Source: Deltaproteobacteria bacterium
GTDB lineage: Bacteria > Desulfobacterota > Deferrisomatia > Deferrisomatales > JACRMM01
DNA: 64,000 bases
Assembly (NCBI GenBank): GCA_016214985.1
Contig: JACRMM010000055.1
Span: 1-64,000, forward strand
Direction: 5' to 3'
How positions within the stretch are numbered: the first letter of the stretch is position 1; every line of letters begins with the position of its first letter. Below, piece after piece: positions 32,581-58,504 of the stretch. The notes below the pieces were generated by a model. The model did no database searches and was not told the DNA's origin. It worked only from the letters and a program-made list of their open reading frames with translations. The position numbers were made by a program, and so were the translations under genes.

Positions 32581-32630
32581 AGTTCCGGGTTCCGGGTCAA
32601 CTGGGAACTGGGAACTGGGAACTGGAAACT
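32581..32630. repeat. Paired inverted heptamer array
   Basis: GTTCCGG units on the left face three AACTGGG copies plus variants on the right, around GGGTC. It occupies the gap between the epimerase and dehydrogenase genes and belongs to the same family as 31573-31630 and 40366-40430. Confidence 0.8.
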
Positions 32631-40365: not shown

Positions 40366-40430
40366 GTTCCGGGTACCGCGTCCCGCGTACCTGTCCCAAC
40401 CCGGAACCCGGAACCCGGAACGCGGAACAC
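40366..40430. repeat. Paired inverted heptamer array
   Basis: Left units such as GTTCCGG and GTACCGC face three AACCCGG copies and variants on the right around CCTGTCCC. Fills the ugd-uxs gap. Same family as at 31.6 and 32.6 kb. Confidence 0.8.
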
Positions 40431-47559: not shown

Positions 47560-48534
47560 GTGCTGGGGTGCCGCTCCGTCCTGAACCGCCCGCCCGACAA
47601 GGAGAGACCGATCACAACGCAGGCCGAGGGGCCTCATCCCTGCCCCGTGCTCTACGCTCCGTACCCCGGACCGGAAGACGAGATCAACCTCCTGGATCTC
47701 CTGCGCGTGCTGGGCCGGCGGTGGTGGTTGATCGCCCTCGTCACGGCGCTCGGCACCGGTGGAGCCGTACTCTACGCGCTCAAGGCGCCTCCGATCTTCC
47801 GAGCCAAGGCGGTCATCGCGCCGCCCGCGCCGAAGCAGGCCGGAGGCGCGTCCGCCGCGCTCGCGGCCCTCGGCGGGATCGGCGCGGAGCTTGCGGGCAG
47901 CATGGGCTTCTCCGCTGGGGGCGCCGACGCGAACCGCCTGGAGGCACTCCTCAAGAGCCACCGCCTGCGTGAGCGCGTCGTGACGAAGTACACGCTCCTC
48001 CCCGTTCTCTTCCCCGAACAATGGGACGGGGCCGCCAAGAAGTGGAAGACAGACTCAGCAGAGACGGAACCGAACATCTGGGACGCAGAGAAGCGCCTCG
48101 ACAAGGTGTTTCTCGTCAAGAACGACATCAAGACAGGAGTCGTGAATCTCTCGTTGGAGCTCGGGGATCCCAGGACGGCCCAAGAGATCTTGCGTCACTT
48201 CCTCGACGAACTGGCGTCGACGATGCAGCAAGACGAGCTCGCGAAGATCCGAAGCAACGAGGAGTTCGCCCGGCAGCAGCTCCGGCGCGCCACCGACCCC
48301 ATCGTCATTGCGAAGCTTCAGGCGATCCTCTCCGAGCAGCTGGACAAGGCGATGATGGCCCAGAATCTCGAAGACTTCGCGTTCGAGGTCATCGATCCCC
48401 CGGCCGGCTCGGATCAGAAGGTGCGGCCTCGAAAAGCCCTGATTGGGGCTGGCGGCGCCGCAGGCTCCTTTTCGCTCGGCGTCTTCCTGGCCCTGCTCGC
48501 CGAATGGGTCCGAAAGGCCCGGGCGATGGTCTGA
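47560..48534 (+). CDS. Wzz/PCP-family chain-length determinant protein
   Basis: Inner-membrane protein with an N-terminal [20 protein letters not shown] helix, a periplasmic coiled middle part ([20 protein letters not shown]) and a C-terminal helix. Regulates polymer length in Wzy-type systems. The start is doubtful: the only standard codons are GTG 47560 (no good ribosome site) and GTG 47647, whereas a strong AAGGAGA at 47599-47605 is correctly spaced for ATC at 47611, a rare start codon. 324 aa if from 47560. Confidence 0.87.
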
Positions 48535-48616
48535 CGCCGTCCCACCCCCCGGCGCCGCCGCGGCGCGGTGCCCCCCCGGGACCTCCGGTCCCCCTTCCTC
48601 GAAAACGGAGCAGCGC

Positions 48617-50179
48617 GTGAAACCAAACATTGCGGTGGTCGGTGGCGGGTACTGGGGCAAGAACCTGGTCCGAAATTTCCACGAACTGGGCGCCCTGCGG
48701 CTCATCTGCGACGCCGACTCCGAGCGCCTCCAGGCGCTGGGCGAGAAGTACGGCGTCCCTACCACCCTTTCGTACTCCGACGTCCTCTCCGACCCGGCCG
48801 TCGACGGGGTAGTGCTCGCCACACCGGCCGAGCGCCACGCGACCATGGTCCGCGAGGCCCTGCTCGCCGGCAAGGACGTGTTCGTGGAGAAGCCCCTCGC
48901 CCTGACCCGGGAGGAAGGGGAGGATCTGCTCCGCCTCGCCCGCAAGACCGGTCGGGTCCTCATGGTCGGGCACCTGCTCCACTACCACGGCGCGGTTCGC
49001 GCCCTCAAAGACCTGGTCTCGTCGGGTGAGCTCGGCCGCGTCCGGTACGTCTACTCGAATCGGCTGAACCTGGGGAAGATCCGGCGGGAGGAAAACATCC
49101 TCTGGTCTTTCGCGCCCCACGACGTCAGCGTGATCCTCGCGCTGGCGAACGAAGCCCCCGAGAGCCTCGCCTGCCAGGGCGGCAACTATCTCCACGCCAA
49201 GATCGCCGACGTCACCGTCTCCACGCTTGCCTTCGCCTCCGGCCTCCGGGCGCACATCTTCGTCTCGTGGCTTCACCCGTACAAGGAGCAGAAGCTCATC
49301 GTGGTCGGCGACCGGAAGATGGCCGTCTTCGACGACCAGGAGCCGGTGGAGAAGCTTCGTCTGTACGCCCACGACATCGAGTGGAAGGAGAGCATGCCCG
49401 TGCCCGTGAAGGCGGAGGCCCAGCTCGTGGCCTTCGACACGGCCGAGCCGCTGAAGGAAGAGTGCCGCCACTTCCTCTCGTGCGTCGAAACCCGGGCGCA
49501 GCCGGTCACCGACGGCGAGGAGGGGCTGCGCGTTCTGTCCGTCCTGCAGGCGCTCCAGCAGAGCCTCGACCGGGGGGGTCAGACGGTGACGCTGGCGCCG
49601 CCTTCGACCCGGGCCTACTTCGTCCACCCGACGGCCACCGTCGACGAACCCTGCTCCATCGGCAAGGGCACGAAGATCTGGCACTACAGCCACATCTCCC
49701 CGAACTGCGAGATCGGCGAGGGCTCGAACCTCGGCCAGAACGTCTTCGTGGCGGCCGGCGTCACGGTCGGCGCCAACGTGAAGATCCAGAACAACGTCAG
49801 CCTTTATGAGGGAGTAGAGCTGGGCGACGACGTCTTCTGCGGCCCCTCGATGGTGTTCACCAACGTCTTGAACCCCCGCAGCCACGTCTCCCGCAAGGAC
49901 GAGTTCCGGAAGACCCGGGTCGGCCGGGGCGCGAGCTTCGGCGCCAACTGCACCGTCGTGTGCGGCCACGACGTGGGCGAGTACGCCTTCATCGGCGCCG
50001 GCGCGGTCGTCACCAAGAACGTGCCCGCGTACGCCCTGATGGTTGGGAACCCTGCCCGGCGACTCGGCTGGATGTGCCAGTGCGGCGTGCGGCTCCCCGA
50101 TGCCCCGGGCCGGGTGGAGTGCAGCGCCTGCGGGTCGGAGTACGAGAGCGGGCCGTCGGCCCTCCGGAGAGTCGGGTGA
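48617..50179 (+). CDS. Fused oxidoreductase-acetyltransferase, WlbA-WlbB/WbpB-WbpD type
   Basis: 520 aa joining two steps normally encoded separately. N-terminal half: Gfo/Idh/MocA dehydrogenase with [25 protein letters not shown] and [12 protein letters not shown]-terminal half (from about 335): left-handed beta-helix acetyltransferase with hexapeptides ([37 protein letters not shown]) and a terminal Zn-ribbon-like CQCG...CSACG. Together they should oxidise C3 of UDP-GlcNAcA and acetylate the 3-amino product made by the aminotransferase. GTG 48617 is chosen; WecB-type gene overlaps by four bases. Confidence 0.9.
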
Positions 50180-51378
50180 TCGTTGCCACGGTCGTCGGCG
50201 CCCGACCCCAGTTCATCAAGGCGGCGGCGGTGTCGCGCGTGCTCCGGGCCACTCCCGGAGCACGGCAGGTGCTGATCCACACGGGCCAGCACTACGACGA
50301 GAGCATGTCCGACGTGTTCTTCGAAGAGCTCGAGATTCCGCGGCCGGACCACAACCTGGGGATCGGCTCGGCGTCCCACGGCGCCCAGACCGGCCGGATG
50401 CTCGAGGCCGTCGAAGCCGTGCTCGTCACCGAGGAACCCGACTGGGTGCTCGTGTACGGCGACACCAACTCGACGCTCGCCGGCGCCCTGGCCGCGGCGA
50501 AGCTCCACATCCGCGTAGCCCACGTGGAGGCCGGCCTGCGCTCGTTGAACCGCCGGATGCCGGAGGAGGTCAACCGGGTCCTCACCGACCACGCGAGCGA
50601 CCTGCTCCTCGCGCCCACGACAGCGGCGCTGGAGAACCTTGCGCGAGAAGGCATCGGCGGAAGCAACGTGGCTCTCGTGGGCGACGTCATGTACGATGTG
50701 GCCCTGTACTTCGGCGACAAGGCCGAGAGCGAGAGCAAGGCGCTCGAGCGCCTGGGGCTGCGTCCCAAAGAGTACGCGCTGGCCACGGTCCATCGGGCAG
50801 AGAACACCGACGACCCCGTGCGGCTCGCCGCCATCCTCGGGGGCTTGTCGGCGCTGGCGCAAAGACTGCCGGTGGTGTTCCCGGTGCATCCGCGCACGCG
50901 CCATCGGCTGACTTCCGAGCCGCTCGGCGGCACCTCCGGCCTGCGTCTGATCGACCCCGTGGGCTACCTCGACATGGTGATGCTCGAGAAGAACGCGGCC
51001 CTCGTGGCCACCGACTCGGGCGGCGTCCAGAAGGAGGCCTTCTTCCACCGCGTTCCCTGCGCCACCCTGCGCGACGAGACCGAGTGGGTGGAGCTGGTGG
51101 AGCTCGGCTGGAACCGCCTCGTGCCGCCAAGGGATGCGGCGTCGGTGGGAGCGACGCTCGTGGCAGCGCTCGGCGCGCGGGGCCGAGAGGCCAGCCCCTA
51201 CGGAGACGGCCGGGCCGCAGAGAAGATTGCCGCACTCCTCGGCAGCGCCGCGAGGCAAGTGCAGGACGAGGGCGTCGAGGTGCTCGAGCCCGGGCGCGCC
51301 GAGCACCAGCGGAATGACCGGTTACCCTCAGAAAGAAGCCGGCTCGATGGTGGCGATATCGAAGCAGCGGAGGGATAG
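50176..51378 (+). CDS. UDP-N-acetylglucosamine 2-epimerase family (WecB/WbpI)
   Basis: 400 aa. [73 protein letters not shown] and [10 protein letters not shown] are family marks. Next to the WlbA-WlbB fusion it most likely acts as the WbpI-type epimerase that yields UDP-ManNAc(3NAc)A. The family core ends near AALLGS; about 40 additional residues run up to 3 bases before the first antitoxin gene, possibly replaced tail sequence. Confidence 0.92.
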
Positions 51379-51381
51379 ACC

Positions 51382-51657
51382 ATGCAGGTTCAGGCGAGAT
51401 GGGAAGATGGCGTTTTGCGACCACTGACTCCGTTGAACCTCAGGCACGCGGTGGTGACGATCGAGGTACCGGATGATGAGGTTGCGGGTCCATCGCAGCT
51501 CGCCTACGAGCTCTCTCCCGAGGCTCAGGTCATTGCCAAGGCGATGACAGCGGAGCTAGACGAAATACGTGCCGCGCCTTTACCACCAGACGAGGAATTG
51601 CCCCCCCTGAGCACAAAACAGCAGGAGCGAATGGCAGCATTCGCCTTGGGATACTGA
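51382..51657 (+). CDS. Antitoxin-like protein 1 of the array
   Basis: 91 aa. N-terminal part VQARWEDGVLRPLTPL...VVTIEVPDDEV matches the strand-rich pattern M-x-[IVL]-x4-E-[DN]-G-x-L shared by six genes in this array and by DUF104/AF2212-type VapB-like antitoxins. The C-terminal half is acidic and likely flexible. No toxin follows directly; the next gene is another, broken antitoxin. Starts 3 bases after the epimerase stop, hence co-transcribed. Confidence 0.7.
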   Translation: MQVQARWEDGVLRPLTPLNLRHAVVTIEVPDDEVAGPSQLAYELSPEAQVIAKAMTAELDEIRAAPLPPDEELPPLSTKQQERMAAFALGY

Positions 51658-51673: not shown

Positions 51674-51932
51674 ATGAGGCTGGCGATGGAGATCCACGAC
51701 GGGAAACTCCTCCCCCCGGCTCATCTGCGCTTCTCGTCTCGCCTGCGCGTCATCGAGGTGGACGTTCCCGAGGACGCGGTGGTTGCAGCGGAGCCGCCCC
51801 CTCCCTACCGCCCGAGGGATCCCGCCCTGCGGCGTGCGCAAGAGATGCTGGGTCCCGGACTATGTCTATGAACCAAGCGGGAAGTCCGACCAGCTGCTGC
51901 TCGAAGAGGCGCTCCTGAAGACGGGCAGACGG
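51674..51932 (+). pseudogene. Frameshifted antitoxin-like gene 2
   Basis: The first 60 codons (RLAMEIHDGKLLPPAHLRF...VDVPEDAVV) follow the array family; after LGP the frame is lost and the reading ends at 51871. Skipping one base at about 51855 restores DYVYEPSGKSDQLLLEEALL, the same tail type as in antitoxin 4 (SIGEDRRTLGDVLMEKY). No toxin follows; the restored frame runs on to 52046 without recognisable sequence, suggesting the toxin was deleted. Confidence 0.65.
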
Positions 51933-52105: not shown

Positions 52106-52393
52106 ATGGAGCTGAGCGCGACCTACGAGAACGGCCGGCTCATTTTTGACACGCCGGTTCGGTTCAAGAACAGACGGATTTCCCTTCGGATCAGCGTCCC
52201 CGACGACGCCGTGGACGTAACGACCGCATCCCAGCAACCGCCTACGGAGCCTCTGGACTCTGTGGCGAGCGAGTCGCTGCGATCGTTGGTTCAACGGATG
52301 AGGCAGATTCGGGGCACTGCCGCCGGCTATCAAGACGACGGACGGACGGACTCGGAGCGCTTTTCCGAGGAACTGGACCTGTTCTACCGATGA
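52106..52393 (+). CDS. Antitoxin-like protein 3, partner of unfused PIN toxin
   Basis: 95 aa: LSATYENGRLIFDTPVRF and ISVPDDAVD place it in the array family; the C-terminal half (ESLRSLVQRMRQIRG..) is charged and would wrap the toxin. GAAGGAGAGACC stands before the ATG. Its stop overlaps the PIN ATG (ATGA), the usual vapBC-like arrangement. Confidence 0.8.
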   Translation: MELSATYENGRLIFDTPVRFKNRRISLRISVPDDAVDVTTASQQPPTEPLDSVASESLRSLVQRMRQIRGTAAGYQDDGRTDSERFSEELDLFYR

Positions 52394-52812
52394 CAACGAA
52401 CCTGCTGCTCGACGTAAACATCGTGGTGGACTTTTGCGCAGAGCGATCGCCGCATTTCGCTTCCGTTCTTCAGGCCCTCGACAAGGCACAGGAGGCGCGG
52501 GTCGCGTGCTGGCTGTACGCCGGCAGCGTCCAAACCTTGGAGTACGTGCTGGCAAACGAGCTGAGGCGCGTAGAGGCCGAGAACGGGCAGCGCTTGAACC
52601 TGCGGGAATCCCACCTGAAGGCCCGAGCCCTTCTCGAATCGTTCTGCGCTGACAAGCAGTGGCTCGCCGCCCTGTCAGAGGACGGCGCCGTGCTCAACGC
52701 CCCGGATCCCGAAGACGCCCAGTTTTGCCGAGCCGTGACCCGGCTGGGGTCAGGCGCGCGCATCCTCACCCGCGACGAGACGCTCCTGGCCCAATGTTCC
52801 CAAGCGATCTAG
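52390..52812 (+). CDS. PIN-domain toxin (VapC-like), unfused
   Basis: 140 aa. Acidic metal-binding residues expected for PIN ribonucleases are visible: Asp in LLLDVNIVVD, Glu in TLEYVLANEL, Asp in DPEDAQF and Asp in LTRDETLL. Overlaps antitoxin 3 by four bases. Unlike the two PIN domains farther downstream, it ends normally, which defines the natural C-terminus and shows where the others have been extended. Target RNA unknown. Confidence 0.86.
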   Translation: MTTNLLLDVNIVVDFCAERSPHFASVLQALDKAQEARVACWLYAGSVQTLEYVLANELRRVEAENGQRLNLRESHLKARALLESFCADKQWLAALSEDGAVLNAPDPEDAQFCRAVTRLGSGARILTRDETLLAQCSQAI

Positions 52813-52876: not shown

Positions 52877-53155
52877 ATGGAGATCCAAGCCACGTACGAA
52901 GACGGCCACTTGCTCTTCGATGAAGCCGTAACACTCAAACATCCTCGAATCCGAGTTACAGTCGTTGTTGCGGATGACGAGGTTGGAGAGCTCGAACAAC
53001 AGATTGGCAGTTCCAATGGATCTGTGCGAGAATATCCTATTCTTGGGAGGCTTGCTGCCATTCTAGGTCCCTATGCAAGACAACGGAGAGGCTATTCGAT
53101 CGGAGAGGACCGGAGGACATTAGGCGATGTTTTGATGGAGAAGTACGGCCAATGA
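52877..53155 (+). CDS. Antitoxin-like protein 4, partner of PIN-aminotransferase copy A
   Basis: 92 aa. IQATYEDGHLLFDEAVTL at the N-terminus; C-terminal ILGPYARQRRGYSIGEDRR and LMEKYGQ tail shared in type with antitoxin 5. GCAAGGAGTAAGAC gives a clear ribosome site. ATGA overlap with the PIN-fusion gene. DNA here is less GC-rich than the flanking sugar genes. Confidence 0.82.
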   Translation: MEIQATYEDGHLLFDEAVTLKHPRIRVTVVVADDEVGELEQQIGSSNGSVREYPILGRLAAILGPYARQRRGYSIGEDRRTLGDVLMEKYGQ

Positions 53156-54822
53156 GACATCTCGTCTTCGATACCAACGTATTGGTCGACGTTGCCATTT
53201 TCCGGGGGTTGTACTATCAGGAGACCGCTCGGCTCTTGGAGAAGGTCGCAAGAGGCGATGCCGCCGGTTGGACAGCCTCATACACGCCCCCTACCATGGT
53301 CTATCTCATCGAACGACAGCTGAGGGCGGAAGGCGCTTCTACGACCGAGGCTCATCAGCGAGCCTGCGAGGCGACGCGGGAGGTGCTACGGCACTTGAGC
53401 ATCCTGCCCATGACGGGAACCCAACTGCTCGACTCGCTCGAAGGAGCGCCCATCGACTTTGAAGACCATCTGATCTCAGTCGCCGCCAAGGCGCACCTGA
53501 GGGACTGCGTGATCGTCAGCCGGGACAAGACCTTTGAGTCCCTGGGCCTGCCGGTCTATCATCCCGCAGACCTCGACGACCGGAGCGTAACGAGCGACGC
53601 GAACCGCGCAGTCGACTTTGTGGATCTCAAAGCGCAGCAGCTCGCAATCTGGAAGCCTCTGGAAGAGCGCCTGCACCGCGTCCTCCGCCACGGCCACTAC
53701 ATCATGGGTCCCGAGGTCGCGGAGCTCGAAAAGACGCTCGGCGAGTACGTGGGCGTCAAACACGCCATCGGCTGCTCTTCGGGCACCGACGCCCTGCTGC
53801 TCCCGCTGATGGCCCTCGGCGTGGGCCCCGGCGACGCCGTGTTCACGACGCCCTTCACCTTTATCGCCACCGCTGAGGTCATCTCGCTCCTCGGTGCGAC
53901 ACCAGTCTTCGTCGACATCGACCCCCTCACCTACAACATCGACCCGGCGCAGTTGGAAAAGGCGATCCGTGCCCTGAAGTCCGGCGACTCGTCCCTCCAC
54001 CCGCTCCCAACTCGGAACTCGGAACTCGGAACTCGGAACTCGGAACTGGGAACCCCGGCCTCCCAACTCGGAACCCGGACCTGGGAACTCCGCGCTCACG
54101 CCGAAGGCAGTGATCGCGGTAGACCTCTACGGCCTCCCCGCCGACTACGACCGCCTGCAGGAGCTCTGCACCGCCGACGGCCTCTTTCTTCTCGAAGACG
54201 CCGCCCAGTCGTTCGGGGGCGAGTACAAGGGCAGAAAGGCCTGCTCCTTCGGCGACGCGGCGGCCACGAGCTTCTTCCCGGCCAAGCCCCTGGGCTGCTA
54301 TGGCGACGGCGGCATGGTCTTCACCAACCGCGACGACCTCGCCGAGATCTGCCGCTCGCTCCTGGTGCACGGAAAGGGGAAGGACAAGTACGACAACGTG
54401 CGCATCGGCCTCAACGCCCGGCTCGACACGCTCCAGGCCGCGATCGTCTTGGCGAAATTTGAGGTCTTCCCTGATGAGTTGGAGAAGCGGCAGCACGTCG
54501 CCAGGAGATACACCGAGGCGCTCGCCCCTCACCCCCACCTCCTCACATCCCCGAGGGGCTGAAGTCCGCCTGGGCGCAGTACACGGTGCGCCTGGCCGGC
54601 GGACAGCGGAGTGCGATAGAATCGGCCTTGAAGAAGGCCGGCGTTCCCACCGCCGTCTACTATCCCAAACCCCTGCACCTCCAGGGGGCGTTCCGGCCGC
54701 TGGGATACAAAGACGGAGACTTCCCGGAGTCGGAGCGGGCGAGCGGTGAGGTGATCAGCCTGCCCTTTGGGCCCTATCTCGACGACGCCGCGGCGCACAG
54801 GGCCACAGAGGCGCTGCGCTAG
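53152..54822 (+). pseudogene. PIN toxin-sugar aminotransferase fusion, copy A (two frameshifts)
   Basis: Residues 1-140 are a complete PIN domain (Asp7 in VFDTNVLVD, Glu54, Asp102/105, Asp125). With no stop it runs into a WbpE/WlbC-type DegT aminotransferase from VDFVDLKAQQ (154) through MGPEVAELEK and CSSGTDALLLPLMAL. A heptamer array at 54009-54092 is inserted and the frame changes; the second part (VIAVDLYGLPADYDR...PAKPLGCYGDGG) is in another frame up to 54562, and the third (AQYTVRLAGG...AVYYPKPLHL) returns to the first. The PIN domain is therefore expressed, but the aminotransferase is broken; the frame-1 product stops at 54462. Confidence 0.85.
54009..54092 (+). repeat. Heptamer array inside aminotransferase copy A
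   Basis: Five AACTCGG, one AACTGGG, an interruption, then four variant units. Located between the codons for AIRALK and VIAVDLYG, where copy B has a shorter array. The seven-base period is not a multiple of three, which explains the frameshift here. Confidence 0.9.
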
Positions 54823-55059
54823 GGAAGGGGAGCGGACTCAGAGGGGTTGGTTCTCGAAAAGAAGGAGACCTTCTCAGCGGGCTCAGCGGCTCAGCGAGAG
54901 AGGAAGGCTCAAAAGCTTCTTCACGCAGAGCCGCAGAGAACGCAAAGGTGTCCGTTCGTAAGCAGAAAGAGTTTTTCTCAGCCGCGAGGACCGGAGCCCC
55001 TTGCAGTCGAAACCTGACGAGTGGGGGACCCCAGCCCTGGAAGAAAAGGAGAGGAGACG
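54823..55059. other. Spacer with degenerate repeats before antitoxin 5
   Basis: No gene. It holds repeated CTCAGCGG/CTCAGCGA motifs near 54877-54897 and a CACGCAGAGCCGCAGAGAACGC-type purine-rich stretch near 54920, resembling low-complexity intergenic filler. GGAGAGGAGACG near its end is the ribosome site of antitoxin 5. Confidence 0.55.
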
Positions 55060-55302
55060 ATGCGGATCGAAGTAACGACGGAAGGCAACCACTTGGTCCT
55101 GCCGAGAGGGCTGAGGCTTCGACCCACCCAGCAAAAGCTTACGGTGGACATCCCCGACGAGGCCATCTCCCCAGTGGACTCTCCCTCGCGCCAGCAGATT
55201 GACCAAATCCTCGGCCCCTATGCCCTCGTGCGGCCTGCGCGGTCCGCCGCGGAGGACAAGGCAATCTGGCACGAACATTTGGAGGAGAAGTACCTTCGAT
55301 GA
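55060..55302 (+). CDS. Antitoxin-like protein 5, partner of PIN-aminotransferase copy B
   Basis: 80 aa. RIEVTTEGNHLVLPRGLRL and LTVDIPDEAI at the N-terminus are almost the same as in orphan antitoxin 6; the C-terminal ILGPYALVRPARSAAEDK and HLEEKYLR tail differs from antitoxin 4 while keeping its pattern. ATG 55060 follows GAGAGGAGACG. ATGA overlap with the fusion gene. Confidence 0.84.
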   Translation: MRIEVTTEGNHLVLPRGLRLRPTQQKLTVDIPDEAISPVDSPSRQQIDQILGPYALVRPARSAAEDKAIWHEHLEEKYLR

Positions 55303-56993
55303 GCTCACGACACGTGGTTTTTGACCTGAATGTATTGGTCAATCTCTTCTTGCGTCGAGGAGATTCCGCGGCCGCAGAAGCCCTCTCCGACAAAGTCCTG
55401 GAGGGCAAGATCACCGGTTGGGTGGCGGCGCAGTCGTTGCCCACTTTGGAGTATTTACTGGTAAAGCAGCTGAAGAACGATGGACTGACGCCCACGGAAG
55501 CCCGAGCGTCGGTGCGAGAACTGCTGCAGTGGCTGACGACACACTACCGGGTCCTCTCGCTGCCGGGCGTGGAAACGGTCGACAAGCTGCACGGGGCACA
55601 TGATCTTGAGGACGCACAGATCGCGCTGGCAGCCACGGCCTTGGCCGGGGCCGCCTGTATCGTCACGGAGGACAAATCGTTCGATGCGTGCGGCTTGGTG
55701 CCAGCCCTTTCCCCTGCTGAGGTTTTGGCCGCCCTCTCAGAGCGAGAAGCATCACGGGCGATCCAGTTTGTGGACCTTCAAGAACAGCAACGTACGGTGC
55801 TCCCGTCGTTGGAGGGTCGTCTCAGGACGGTCCTCCGCCACGGCCACTACATCATGGGCCCCGAGGTCGCGGAGCTCGAGAAGAAGCTCGCCGAGTACGT
55901 GGGCGTCAAGCACGCCATCGGCTGCTCCTCCGGCACCGACGCCCTGCTGCTCCCGCTGATGGCCCTCGGCGTGGGCCCGGGCGACGCCGTGTTCACGACC
56001 CCGTTCACCTTCATCGCCACCGCCGAGGTCATCTCGCTCCTCGGCGCCACACCAGTCTTCGTCGACATCGATCCCCTCACCTACAACATCGACCCGGCCC
56101 AGCTCGAAAAGGCGATCCGAGCCGTCAAGACGAACGATCCAGCGATCTATCCTCTCCCAACTCGGAACTCGGAACCCGGAACTCGGAACGCCGGCCTCCG
56201 GCCGGCCGGCGTGATCGCGGTAGACCTCTACGGCCTCCCCGCCGACTACGACCGCCTGCAGGAGCTCTGCACCGCCAATGGTCTCTTCCTCCTCGAAGAC
56301 GCCGCCCAGTCGTTCGGGGGCGAGCATAAGGGCAGAAAGGCCGGCTCCTTCGGCGACGCAGCGGCCACGAGCTTCTTCCCGGCCAAACCCCTGGGCTGCT
56401 ACGGCGACGGCGGCATGGTCTTCACCAACCGCGACGATATCGCCGAGATCTGCCGTTCTCTGCTGGTCCACGGCAAGGGGAAGGAGAAGTACGACAACGT
56501 GCGCATCGGCCTCAATGCCCGTCTCGACACGCTGCAGGCCGCGATCGTCTTGGCAAAGTTCGAGGCGTTTCCGGCCGAAGTGGAAGCGCGGCAAGACGTG
56601 GCTCGGCGGTACACCGAGCTTCTGTCCCCCGGTCCCGGACCCAGGCCTCAGGACTCAGGACTCGGAACAGGGAACACGGCACTGGGAGCTCGGATCTCGG
56701 GCCTACGCCCTCCCCACGTGCCCGGCGGCTGCAAGTCTGCCTGGGCGCAGTACACGATCCGCCTCGCCGCGGGTCAAAGGACTGCGATAGAATCGGTCCT
56801 CAAGAGGGCAGGCGTTCCCACCGCCGTGTACTACCCCAAACCGCTGCACCTCCAGGGAGCCTTCCGGCCTCTTGGGTACGGGCAGGGAGACTTTCCCGAG
56901 TCGGAGCGGGCGAGCACCGAGGTGCTGAGTCTGCCTTTTGGCCCGCATCTCGACGACGCGTCGGCGCACAAGGTCACCGCGGCGCTGCGCTGA
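55299..56993 (+). CDS. PIN toxin-sugar aminotransferase fusion, copy B (intact)
   Basis: 564 aa, one unbroken frame. PIN domain 1-140 with Asp9, Glu51, Asp102/105 and Asp125; DegT/DnrJ aminotransferase from IQFVDLQEQQ (155) to the end, with GHYIMGPEVAELEKKL, CSSGTDALLL, PLP-binding LLEDAAQSFGG (Asp334) and Schiff-base Lys363 in SFFPAKPLGCYGDGG. It is probably the WbpE/WlbC-type enzyme aminating C3 of UDP-3-keto-GlcNAcA, completing the WlbA-WlbB/WecB pathway. Two heptamer inserts (near residues 288-304 and 450-470) keep the frame. GTG 55770 is an in-frame possible internal start for the aminotransferase alone, without a good ribosome site. Confidence 0.9.
   Translation: MSSRHVVFDLNVLVNLFLRRGDSAAAEALSDKVLEGKITGWVAAQSLPTLEYLLVKQLKNDGLTPTEARASVRELLQWLTTHYRVLSLPGVETVDKLHGAHDLEDAQIALAATALAGAACIVTEDKSFDACGLVPALSPAEVLAALSEREASRAIQFVDLQEQQRTVLPSLEGRLRTVLRHGHYIMGPEVAELEKKLAEYVGVKHAIGCSSGTDALLLPLMALGVGPGDAVFTTPFTFIATAEVISLLGATPVFVDIDPLTYNIDPAQLEKAIRAVKTNDPAIYPLPTRNSEPGTRNAGLRPAGVIAVDLYGLPADYDRLQELCTANGLFLLEDAAQSFGGEHKGRKAGSFGDAAATSFFPAKPLGCYGDGGMVFTNRDDIAEICRSLLVHGKGKEKYDNVRIGLNARLDTLQAAIVLAKFEAFPAEVEARQDVARRYTELLSPGPGPRPQDSGLGTGNTALGARISGLRPPHVPGGCKSAWAQYTIRLAAGQRTAIESVLKRAGVPTAVYYPKPLHLQGAFRPLGYGQGDFPESERASTEVLSLPFGPHLDDASAHKVTAALR
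56159..56194 (+). repeat. Heptamer array inside aminotransferase copy B, first site
   Basis: Four units (AACTCGG, AACTCGG, AACCCGG, AACTCGG) plus a remnant, at the same codon position as the longer array in copy A. It encodes TRNSEPGTRN within the enzyme and does not break the frame. Confidence 0.88.
56646..56701 (+). repeat. Degenerate heptamer array inside aminotransferase copy B, second site
   Basis: Eight imperfect 7-base units (CCTCAGG, ACTCAGG, ACTCGGA and variants) encoding a Gly/Pro/Ser-rich loop before VPGGCKSAWAQYT. Copy A has only a short linker at this position. Confidence 0.75.
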
Positions 56994-57130: not shown

Positions 57131-57403
57131 ATGCGGATTGAAGTCACGACGGAAGGCAACCGGCTCATTCTCCCGAAGGGTCTCAGACTCCGATCCGCTC
57201 AACGGAAATTGACCGTAGAGATCCCTGACGACGCGATTGAAACCTCTGAGCCGGCGAACACTGCGGAGCCCGCCTGCGCAGCGTCGAGTCGCGTCAGCGA
57301 GCTCCTCTCCGACCTTCACGGAATCCTCGGAGAGGGATATCGGTACGTGCCGTCCGGAACGACCGACCGGGAGCTCCTTGCAGAAGCTCTGGTCCTCGGA
57401 TGA
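57131..57403 (+). CDS. Antitoxin-like protein 6, orphan
   Basis: 90 aa. The N-terminal 35 residues (RIEVTTEGNRLILPKGLRL; LTVEIPDDAI) are nearly those of antitoxin 5; the C-terminal half (LLSDLHGILGEGYRYVPSG) differs. No toxin gene follows: the 4,6-dehydratase begins 57 bases later. It may be the remains of a third antitoxin/PIN cassette or an extra antitoxin acting on copy B. ATG 57131 chosen by alignment with antitoxin 5. Confidence 0.72.
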   Translation: MRIEVTTEGNRLILPKGLRLRSAQRKLTVEIPDDAIETSEPANTAEPACAASSRVSELLSDLHGILGEGYRYVPSGTTDRELLAEALVLG

Positions 57404-57460
57404 CGACGGCCTGAGTTGACCCATTGACTCGCCTCCTTGACGCACAGAAGGACGCAGCCC

Positions 57461-58504
57461 ATGCGCGATAAGATCTCAACGGCGCTAGAGGGAAAGCACA
57501 TGCTCGTGACGGGTGGCACCGGTAGTTTCGGCCACGCTATCGTCAAGGAACTGGCACGCTTTCAGCCCGCGTCCATCAGTATCTTCAGCAGGGATGAGAA
57601 GAAACAATACGAGATGCAGCACGAATTTTCGCATGAGTGCCGCCTGCGATTTTTCCTCGGAGACGTCAGAGACTTTGAAAGAACTCGGGAAGTAATGCGC
57701 GGCATCGACATCGTTTTTCACGCAGCCGCCTTGAAGCAGGTCCCAAATTGCGAATTTGCACCTTTCGAGGCTGTGCGCACCAACATCGTTGGCGCTGAAA
57801 ATCTTCGACGCGCCGCGGTGGAAGCAGGCGTTAAGACAGTTATTGCAATTAGTACTGACAAGGCTGTCAAACCAGTGAATGTCATGGGAATGTCAAAGGC
57901 CATACAAGAACGGATTATGCTGAATCCAACCAACGAGAGCGAAAGTACTAAGTTCGTCTGCGTTCGGTATGGCAATGTGATGGGAAGTCGCGGGAGTGTG
58001 GTGCCCCTCTTCTGCGACTACATTCTCAAGGGCGAAGCACTCCCCATCACCCACCCCGACATGACACGCTTCCAACTCACGCTCCAGGAGGCTGTGCACC
58101 TTGTGCTGTGGGCTACGGTCAGGGGGGAGAGCGGGGACCTCTGGGTGCGCAAGATGCCAGCCACGACCATTCGGACTCTGGGAAGGGTTCTGGCATATGG
58201 CATGACGGGAAACGAGGAGTACCCGGAGAGGATTGTGGGAACCCGGCCAGGAGAGAAGATGCACGAAGTCCTGGTGTCAGAAGAGGAGATGTGGCGGGCG
58301 ACGGAATTGGAGGACCACTTCCTCATTCCGTCCTGGGCAAAATCTCAGGATACGCCTGGTATCACGGAAGGTGCCTTCAAGGAGTATTCGTCAGAAGATG
58401 TTCACCAATTGTCTGAGGGCGAACTCCTTGAGATGCTTATGGCAGATGGTTGGATCACACCTGAGCACCGCCCCGGTCCGAAGGCGCGACTATCCCATGG
58501 CTAG
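57461..58504 (+). CDS. UDP-GlcNAc 4,6-dehydratase-like polysaccharide biosynthesis protein
   Basis: 347 aa of the CapE/PseB/FnlA-type short-form dehydratases. NAD motif VTGGTGSFGHAIVKEL, SRDEKKQYEMQHEF, HAAALKQVPNCEFAPFE, the Thr-Asp-Lys active site ISTDKAVKPVNVMG followed by SKAIQERIM, and YGNVMGSRGSVVPLF are all typical. First gene of a block with lower GC. Whether C5 is inverted cannot be read reliably. Overlaps the next aminotransferase by 8 bases. Confidence 0.9.
   Translation: MRDKISTALEGKHMLVTGGTGSFGHAIVKELARFQPASISIFSRDEKKQYEMQHEFSHECRLRFFLGDVRDFERTREVMRGIDIVFHAAALKQVPNCEFAPFEAVRTNIVGAENLRRAAVEAGVKTVIAISTDKAVKPVNVMGMSKAIQERIMLNPTNESESTKFVCVRYGNVMGSRGSVVPLFCDYILKGEALPITHPDMTRFQLTLQEAVHLVLWATVRGESGDLWVRKMPATTIRTLGRVLAYGMTGNEEYPERIVGTRPGEKMHEVLVSEEEMWRATELEDHFLIPSWAKSQDTPGITEGAFKEYSSEDVHQLSEGELLEMLMADGWITPEHRPGPKARLSHG

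Follow-up and report, generated by a model that had tools for sequence, protein, structure and literature searches.

A PIN ribonuclease domain fused in frame to a WbpE-like aminotransferase behind an antitoxin-like gene in a Deltaproteobacteria polysaccharide locus and in other bacterial genomes

The first 64,000 nucleotides of contig JACRMM010000055.1 (the window), part of a 5.6-Mb metagenome-assembled genome (MAG) of a Deltaproteobacteria bacterium, contain two tandem genes, copies A and B, in which a first-pass annotation had recognized a PIN ribonuclease in frame with a WbpE/WlbC-type DegT aminotransferase. All window features given here lie on the forward strand. Copy B (55299 to 56993) is a single open frame of 564 codons, and Pfam assigned its residues 6 to 126 to PIN_3 (E 7e-11) and residues 174 to 564 to DegT_DnrJ_EryC1 (E 7.6e-101), confirming the fused architecture. 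The residue check found all four acids of the PIN part (55299 to 55766), D9, E51, D105, and D125, and the WbpE-like part (55767 to 56993) retains the pyridoxal 5'-phosphate (PLP) lysine K363 and the aspartate D334; the unbroken frame, Lys363, and Asp334 had all been noted in the first pass. An AlphaFold2 model of copy B, built on a 13-sequence alignment and in agreement with the PIN assignment, reached a mean predicted local distance difference test score (pLDDT) of 86.5 and a predicted template modeling score (pTM) of 0.81. Its top Protein Data Bank (PDB) matches in Foldseek were a Brucella DegT enzyme (4qgr) and P. aeruginosa WbpE (3nu7/3nu8), with a target template modeling (TM) score of 0.95 against 4qgr/3nu7; in the structure match, the enzyme part is 43% identical to WbpE. 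Upstream, an antitoxin-like open reading frame (ORF) running from the ATG at 55060 to the stop end at 55302 shares an ATGA with the copy B start. On these features, copy B is predicted to be a toxic ribonuclease (RNase) that is putatively neutralized and putatively active as an aminotransferase.

The same architecture was identified in 22 further genes from 21 genomes (G012, G051, G086, G296, G372, G271, G432, G434 with two, G438, G231, G234, G452, G236, G082, G114, G047, G473, G115, G083, G544, and G482), which together with the two window copies gives 24 PIN::DegT fusions in 22 genomes. Nineteen of the 21 genomes belong to the phylum of the window and carry nine family codes; G544 and G482 were drawn from 392 genomes sampled around a MAG titled Planctomycetota. 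Nearly all 24 frames are open throughout, and the PIN-DegT boundary is similarly placed. Its recurrence in 21 further genomes shows that the fusion is real and did not arise by accident in one genome alone, and the presence of the same join in independent assemblies ruled out a sequencing or assembly artefact. No match covering the PIN part in an open frame was found among 396 genomes sampled around an Acidobacteria MAG, and PIN fusions were absent among the 80 nearest DegT loci of Genome Taxonomy Database (GTDB) genomes, where the flagged long frames were read as wrong-frame translations. Other candidates selected by frame length (L155, L156, L161, L140, L141, and L148-L150) were not PIN fusions.

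A shared frame could in principle yield two products, with translation of the enzyme initiating mainly within the frame, at the junction, and toxin and enzyme thus functionally separate. ATG, GTG, or TTG codons do occur near some junctions, for example GTG 55770 in copy B and ATG in L132, L139, and L159. Against this, 10 of the 24 fusions have no start codon between 14 codons before and 2 after the junction, and a Shine-Dalgarno-like word accompanies just one candidate (L131). An internal start is unlikely for most fusions, and the explanation as a whole appears improbable.

The polysaccharide-operon setting proposed in the first pass was borne out by the surrounding genes. A wbpB-wbpD-like fusion (Gfo/Idh/MocA oxidoreductase plus hexapeptide acyltransferase; 48443 to 50179; Pfam and tblastn) and a wbpI-like UDP-GlcNAc 2-epimerase gene (ORF limits 49960 to 51378, domain from about residue 95; Pfam Epimerase_2, 1e-107) lie upstream of the fusions and provide the context of a UDP-ManNAc3NAcA-type pathway, while a Polysacc_synt_2 nucleotide-sugar gene (57437 to 58504; Pfam) marks the end of the array. 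A wbpBD homologue also lies beside the fusion in 8 other loci by tblastn, with wbpB and wbpD separate at L158. The suggestion that the fused enzyme is the only source of the missing step in this pathway was not supported, as the same genome carries a second, unfused WbpE-like gene (G000:C10) that is 68% identical over residues 151 to 446. This unfused gene (L145, G000:C10:97000-110000) adjoins apparent type IV pilus and two-component regulator genes, and an apparent decayed wbpD end lies upstream of it in another frame. At L186 (G234:C71), a nucleotidyltransferase-like ORF, possibly of the MNT type, directly follows the PIN::DegT gene.

Between wbpI and 57437, a profile search revealed six antitoxin-like genes. 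Gene 1 (51382 to 51657; 90 bits) is an orphan without a PIN after it; it is of the same kind as the L134 and L153a antitoxins, and its match to PF01954 (E 0.0019) falls under the curated cut-off. Gene 2 (51674 to 51871; 61 bits) is truncated by a frameshift, as indicated by alignment with the L133 antitoxin, and its remainder is readable in another frame near 51858-51905. Genes 3 (52106 to 52393; 98.6 bits), 4 (52877 to 53155; 96.6 bits), and 5 (55060 to 55302; 82 bits) each overlap the following PIN gene by ATGA, these being PIN1, copy A, and copy B, respectively; PIN1 (52390 to 52812; Pfam PIN_3, 4e-8, and tree) is unfused and carries the acids DEDD. Gene 6 (57131 to 57403; 96.6 bits) is again an orphan. 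Of the six, two are orphans, one is frameshifted, and three precede a PIN gene; the region therefore amounts to a series of stacked antitoxin-PIN units, here called heads, in varied states. An antitoxin of its own for each fusion had been proposed, and the ATGA-coupled gene upstream of each agrees with this, but six antitoxin-like genes in the region do not amount to one each.

Copy A (53152 to 54822) joins a PIN part with D7, V50, D105, and D125 to a DegT part that carries two frameshifts; its frame is open to 54462 only, so that the PIN part is open and the aminotransferase broken. The retention of all acidic residues, claimed for both copies, holds for copy B and fails in copy A, where Val50 stands in place of Glu51; 14 unfused PIN_3 relatives likewise have no acid at the Val50 position (H/F/Y instead). 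Likewise, the notion that both halves are functional in both copies was not supported, since the copy A aminotransferase is frameshifted. The frame is lost around a 7-bp minisatellite, AACTCGG, at 54009-54090 (11.7 copies by Tandem Repeats Finder, TRF), and again near 54540. The minisatellite lies inside the copy A DegT part, and 4.4 copies (TRF) occupy the equivalent place in copy B, 56159 to 56189. Because the 7-bp unit is not a multiple of three, a change in copy number could toggle the enzyme on and off.

The repeat occupies the same loop in both DegT copies. AACTCGG also occurs at 56637-56663, 32599-32621, and 40398-40427, with 15 matches in the window against 0.05 expected. The unfused DegTs L024 (G057) and L141 (G328) have repeat-like or alanine-rich inserts in what is apparently the same loop.

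Comparison of the copies revealed that heads differ where enzyme bodies agree. Copies A and B share about 50% DNA identity over the PIN part and the first ~24 DegT codons, and a sliding comparison placed a mosaic breakpoint at 53683 in copy A (55833 in copy B), from which identity is mostly 87-95%, with dips at repeat-bearing loops. L153 is a second tandem array in which the heads are unlike and identity leaps to 96-100% exactly at the DegT start. Between L134 and L153a, DNA identity is 90-98% over most of the antitoxin-PIN segment versus 60-85% over wbpBD and most of DegT, and the synonymous divergence (dS) is 0.31 in PIN and 1.31 in DegT. In the trees, the fused PINs and PIN1 fall on one side of a branch with 99% Shimodaira-Hasegawa-like approximate likelihood ratio test (SH-aLRT) support, opposite the nearest unfused PINs. 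The fused DegTs are scattered on the DegT tree with nine label changes, at least 3 of them forced, and the DegT of copy B clusters with the unfused DegT of the same genome (81%). A single vertical fusion of one gene was rejected, the PINs looking like one lineage and their DegT partners being scattered. This scatter points to exchange of heads or bodies or to repeated PIN loss, between which the trees cannot tell; exchange of heads onto resident wbpE genes fits, with repeated PIN loss as the alternative.

These patterns also bear on neutral read-through, in which a stop codon was lost between adjacent genes with no resulting function. Broken copy A and a region rich in orphan and decayed pieces are what such an accident might leave. 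The reading is contradicted by 24 fusions in 22 genomes and many families, nearly all open and with a similarly placed boundary, and by a fused PIN lineage distinct from the unfused PINs, and we consider it very improbable.

The antitoxin-PIN pair at 52106-52812 had been taken as a yardstick for the normal length of the toxin, a use that does not hold, since PIN1 nests among the fused PINs (100% SH-aLRT for the 14-row set containing PIN1). Because of this nesting, PIN1 is probably a truncated former fusion, a head minus its enzyme, and not an ancestral free toxin; its position inside the fused clade points away from the normal ancestor that was also considered. Sound heads are found on lost or broken enzymes at PIN1, copy A, and L153a (a single late frameshift), and this persistence suggests that heads are maintained in their own right.

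To relate the antitoxin to the state of the PIN, acids 1 and 3, which are invariant in the 14 unfused PIN_3 relatives, were scored in three alignments with differing settings. An earlier strict three-acid test (8 of 10 versus 0 of 15) was replaced because position 2 is non-acidic in unfused relatives. Each of the 10 heads immediately preceded by an antitoxin-like gene retains both acids (copies A and B, PIN1, L133, L134, L152, the two of L153, L159, and L165, the third acid of L165 being Glu), and by alignment none of the 15 heads lacking such a gene does so. Here, absence of an antitoxin means no match to the profile built from the known antitoxins of this set, and 14 other loci yielded no profile hit at E<=0.05. 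Most of these loci have, by eye, a larger unrelated gene directly upstream. L151 is intermediate, with a decayed antitoxin remnant (E 5e-4) and two acids lost. We refer to heads with antitoxin and acids as armed and to those without as disarmed.

Disarmed N-terminal domains still resemble PINs. Where Pfam matches were weak, hhalign against armed PINs gave 99% for the f40 and f5 groups and 42% for f41. The f41 domain modeled alone with AlphaFold2 (pLDDT 91) resembles VapC/PIN structures, a match that is supportive and not independent because the model alignment included armed PINs. A PDB sequence search with the PIN parts returned no PIN match. Among the structural matches of the disarmed domain was the cyclodehydratase RohQ (PDB 9c5w), possibly another PIN-like fold in biosynthetic use. 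Pairwise w (Nei-Gojobori) in pairs with measurable dS was 0.09-0.22 for DegT and 0.16-0.44 for PIN, and about 0.16-0.39 for disarmed PINs. With w below 0.4, the disarmed domain is evidently maintained, perhaps just for initiation and folding.

The persistence of acid-less PIN folds under purifying selection and without an antitoxin implies some non-catalytic use, and this favours a rival in which the PIN part has always served the host, in RNA binding, oligomerization, or control of the enzyme through the small protein encoded upstream, and was never a poison, the upstream protein acting as partner or repressor. Such a role does not account for acids retained only beside an antitoxin gene, or for heads that persist on a frameshifted or absent enzyme (copy A, PIN1). 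In addition, unlike neighbouring heads, homogenized bodies, and head recombination across genomes are a better fit to toxin-antitoxin biology. We regard the host-serving alternative as rather unlikely.

The explanation we favour as probable is that a VapBC-like addiction module has been welded to wbpE, that it recombines as a unit, the head, and that its descendants, though disarmed, are kept after antitoxin loss. Among the three hypotheses raised in the first pass, the best fit is an addiction module hard-wired to the locus, because the acids persist only beside an antitoxin, heads outlast the enzyme, and heads recombine independently. Control of the enzyme by the antitoxin, another of the three, is a possible alternative. 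The toxin frame of the antitoxin-PIN heads is joined to the start of wbpE, a 3-amino-sugar aminotransferase gene, and in such a scheme the PIN part would be a toxic RNase restrained by the upstream antitoxin. With toxin and enzyme on a single polypeptide, simple deletion of the toxin frame would cost the cell that copy of the enzyme. Unlike heads may coexist because their antitoxins would not cross-neutralize. Once an antitoxin is lost, the nuclease would be mutated away, and the PIN fold would stay on at the N terminus, since translation of the enzyme would by then begin at the PIN start. The wider proposal of a welded toxin-antitoxin class, whose heads take over the 5' end of wbpE-type genes through recombination, diversify against cross-neutralization, persist via the shared polypeptide, and leave disarmed PINs, is more tentative, and we put it at somewhat under an even chance.

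Several observations weigh against the addiction-module explanation. L138 and L139, which have no antitoxin, carry an Asp close to the third position and are ambiguous in status, and copy A and L165 lack the second-position acid despite an antitoxin. Fisher's exact test gave 3e-7 for the antitoxin-acid link, or 2e-5 with L138 and L139 counted as intact, values that are overstated because the rows are related. A branch-independent test had only 3 pairs on starred branches, of which 2.5 agree and 0 disagree (p 0.25). The trees are quick and contain some long branches, and most genomes are MAGs. The antitoxins match Pfam AF2212-like weakly, in 4 of 13 members with a best value of 2e-5. As for PIN1 as a former fusion, the 64 bases that follow it show no evident trace of DegT.

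The usual view of toxin-antitoxin systems is of two distinct genes that persist as a module. In the fusions, which occur in many genomes, the toxin instead forms one portion of a biosynthetic enzyme, and the set grades naturally from armed heads, with antitoxin and acids, by way of the decaying L151 to disarmed ones. This raises two questions, namely whether an addiction module can secure itself by joining a beneficial gene, and by what route a toxin turns into an ordinary enzyme domain. Annotators should note that some WbpE-like proteins begin with ~155 residues of PIN origin.

No published report of a PIN-DegT protein was found in the open-access literature searched, no NCBIfam or PADLOC model describes the architecture, and a PADLOC run gave no match. 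Makarova et al. 2009 (PMC2701414), in the part available, describes AF2212/COG2880 antitoxins of PIN toxins, tandemly duplicated with PIN neighbours, and that part makes no mention of an enzyme fusion of the PIN-DegT kind. The fusion antitoxins share with AF2212/COG2880 a similar N-terminal sequence and the pairing with PIN, and differ in their distinct C-terminal tails. Upstream of the closest unfused PINs of the phylum lies another kind of small gene, which by eye resembles a ribbon-helix-helix (RHH) type antitoxin. The RHH-like small genes of L172-L185 end in a LEEKY tail resembling that of some fusion antitoxins, which suggests exchange of antitoxin N-terminal domains.

On the enzyme side, the fusion resembles WbpE/WlbC (PDB 3nu7) in its PLP lysine and aspartate and in the adjoining wbpBD and wbpI homologues, whereas the ~155-residue N-terminal PIN is absent from the solved homologues. 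On the toxin side, the likeness to VapBC-type (PIN) and PIN_3 systems extends to the PIN fold, the acidic positions in copy B, the small upstream antitoxin-like gene with its ATGA overlap, and tandem duplication and decay. In contrast to those systems, the fused toxin frame runs on into a metabolic enzyme, giving about 560 residues versus about 140. The fusion works like a VapBC module and is no standard member, because its toxin is not a free-standing protein of ~130-150 residues but the beginning of a 564-codon frame.

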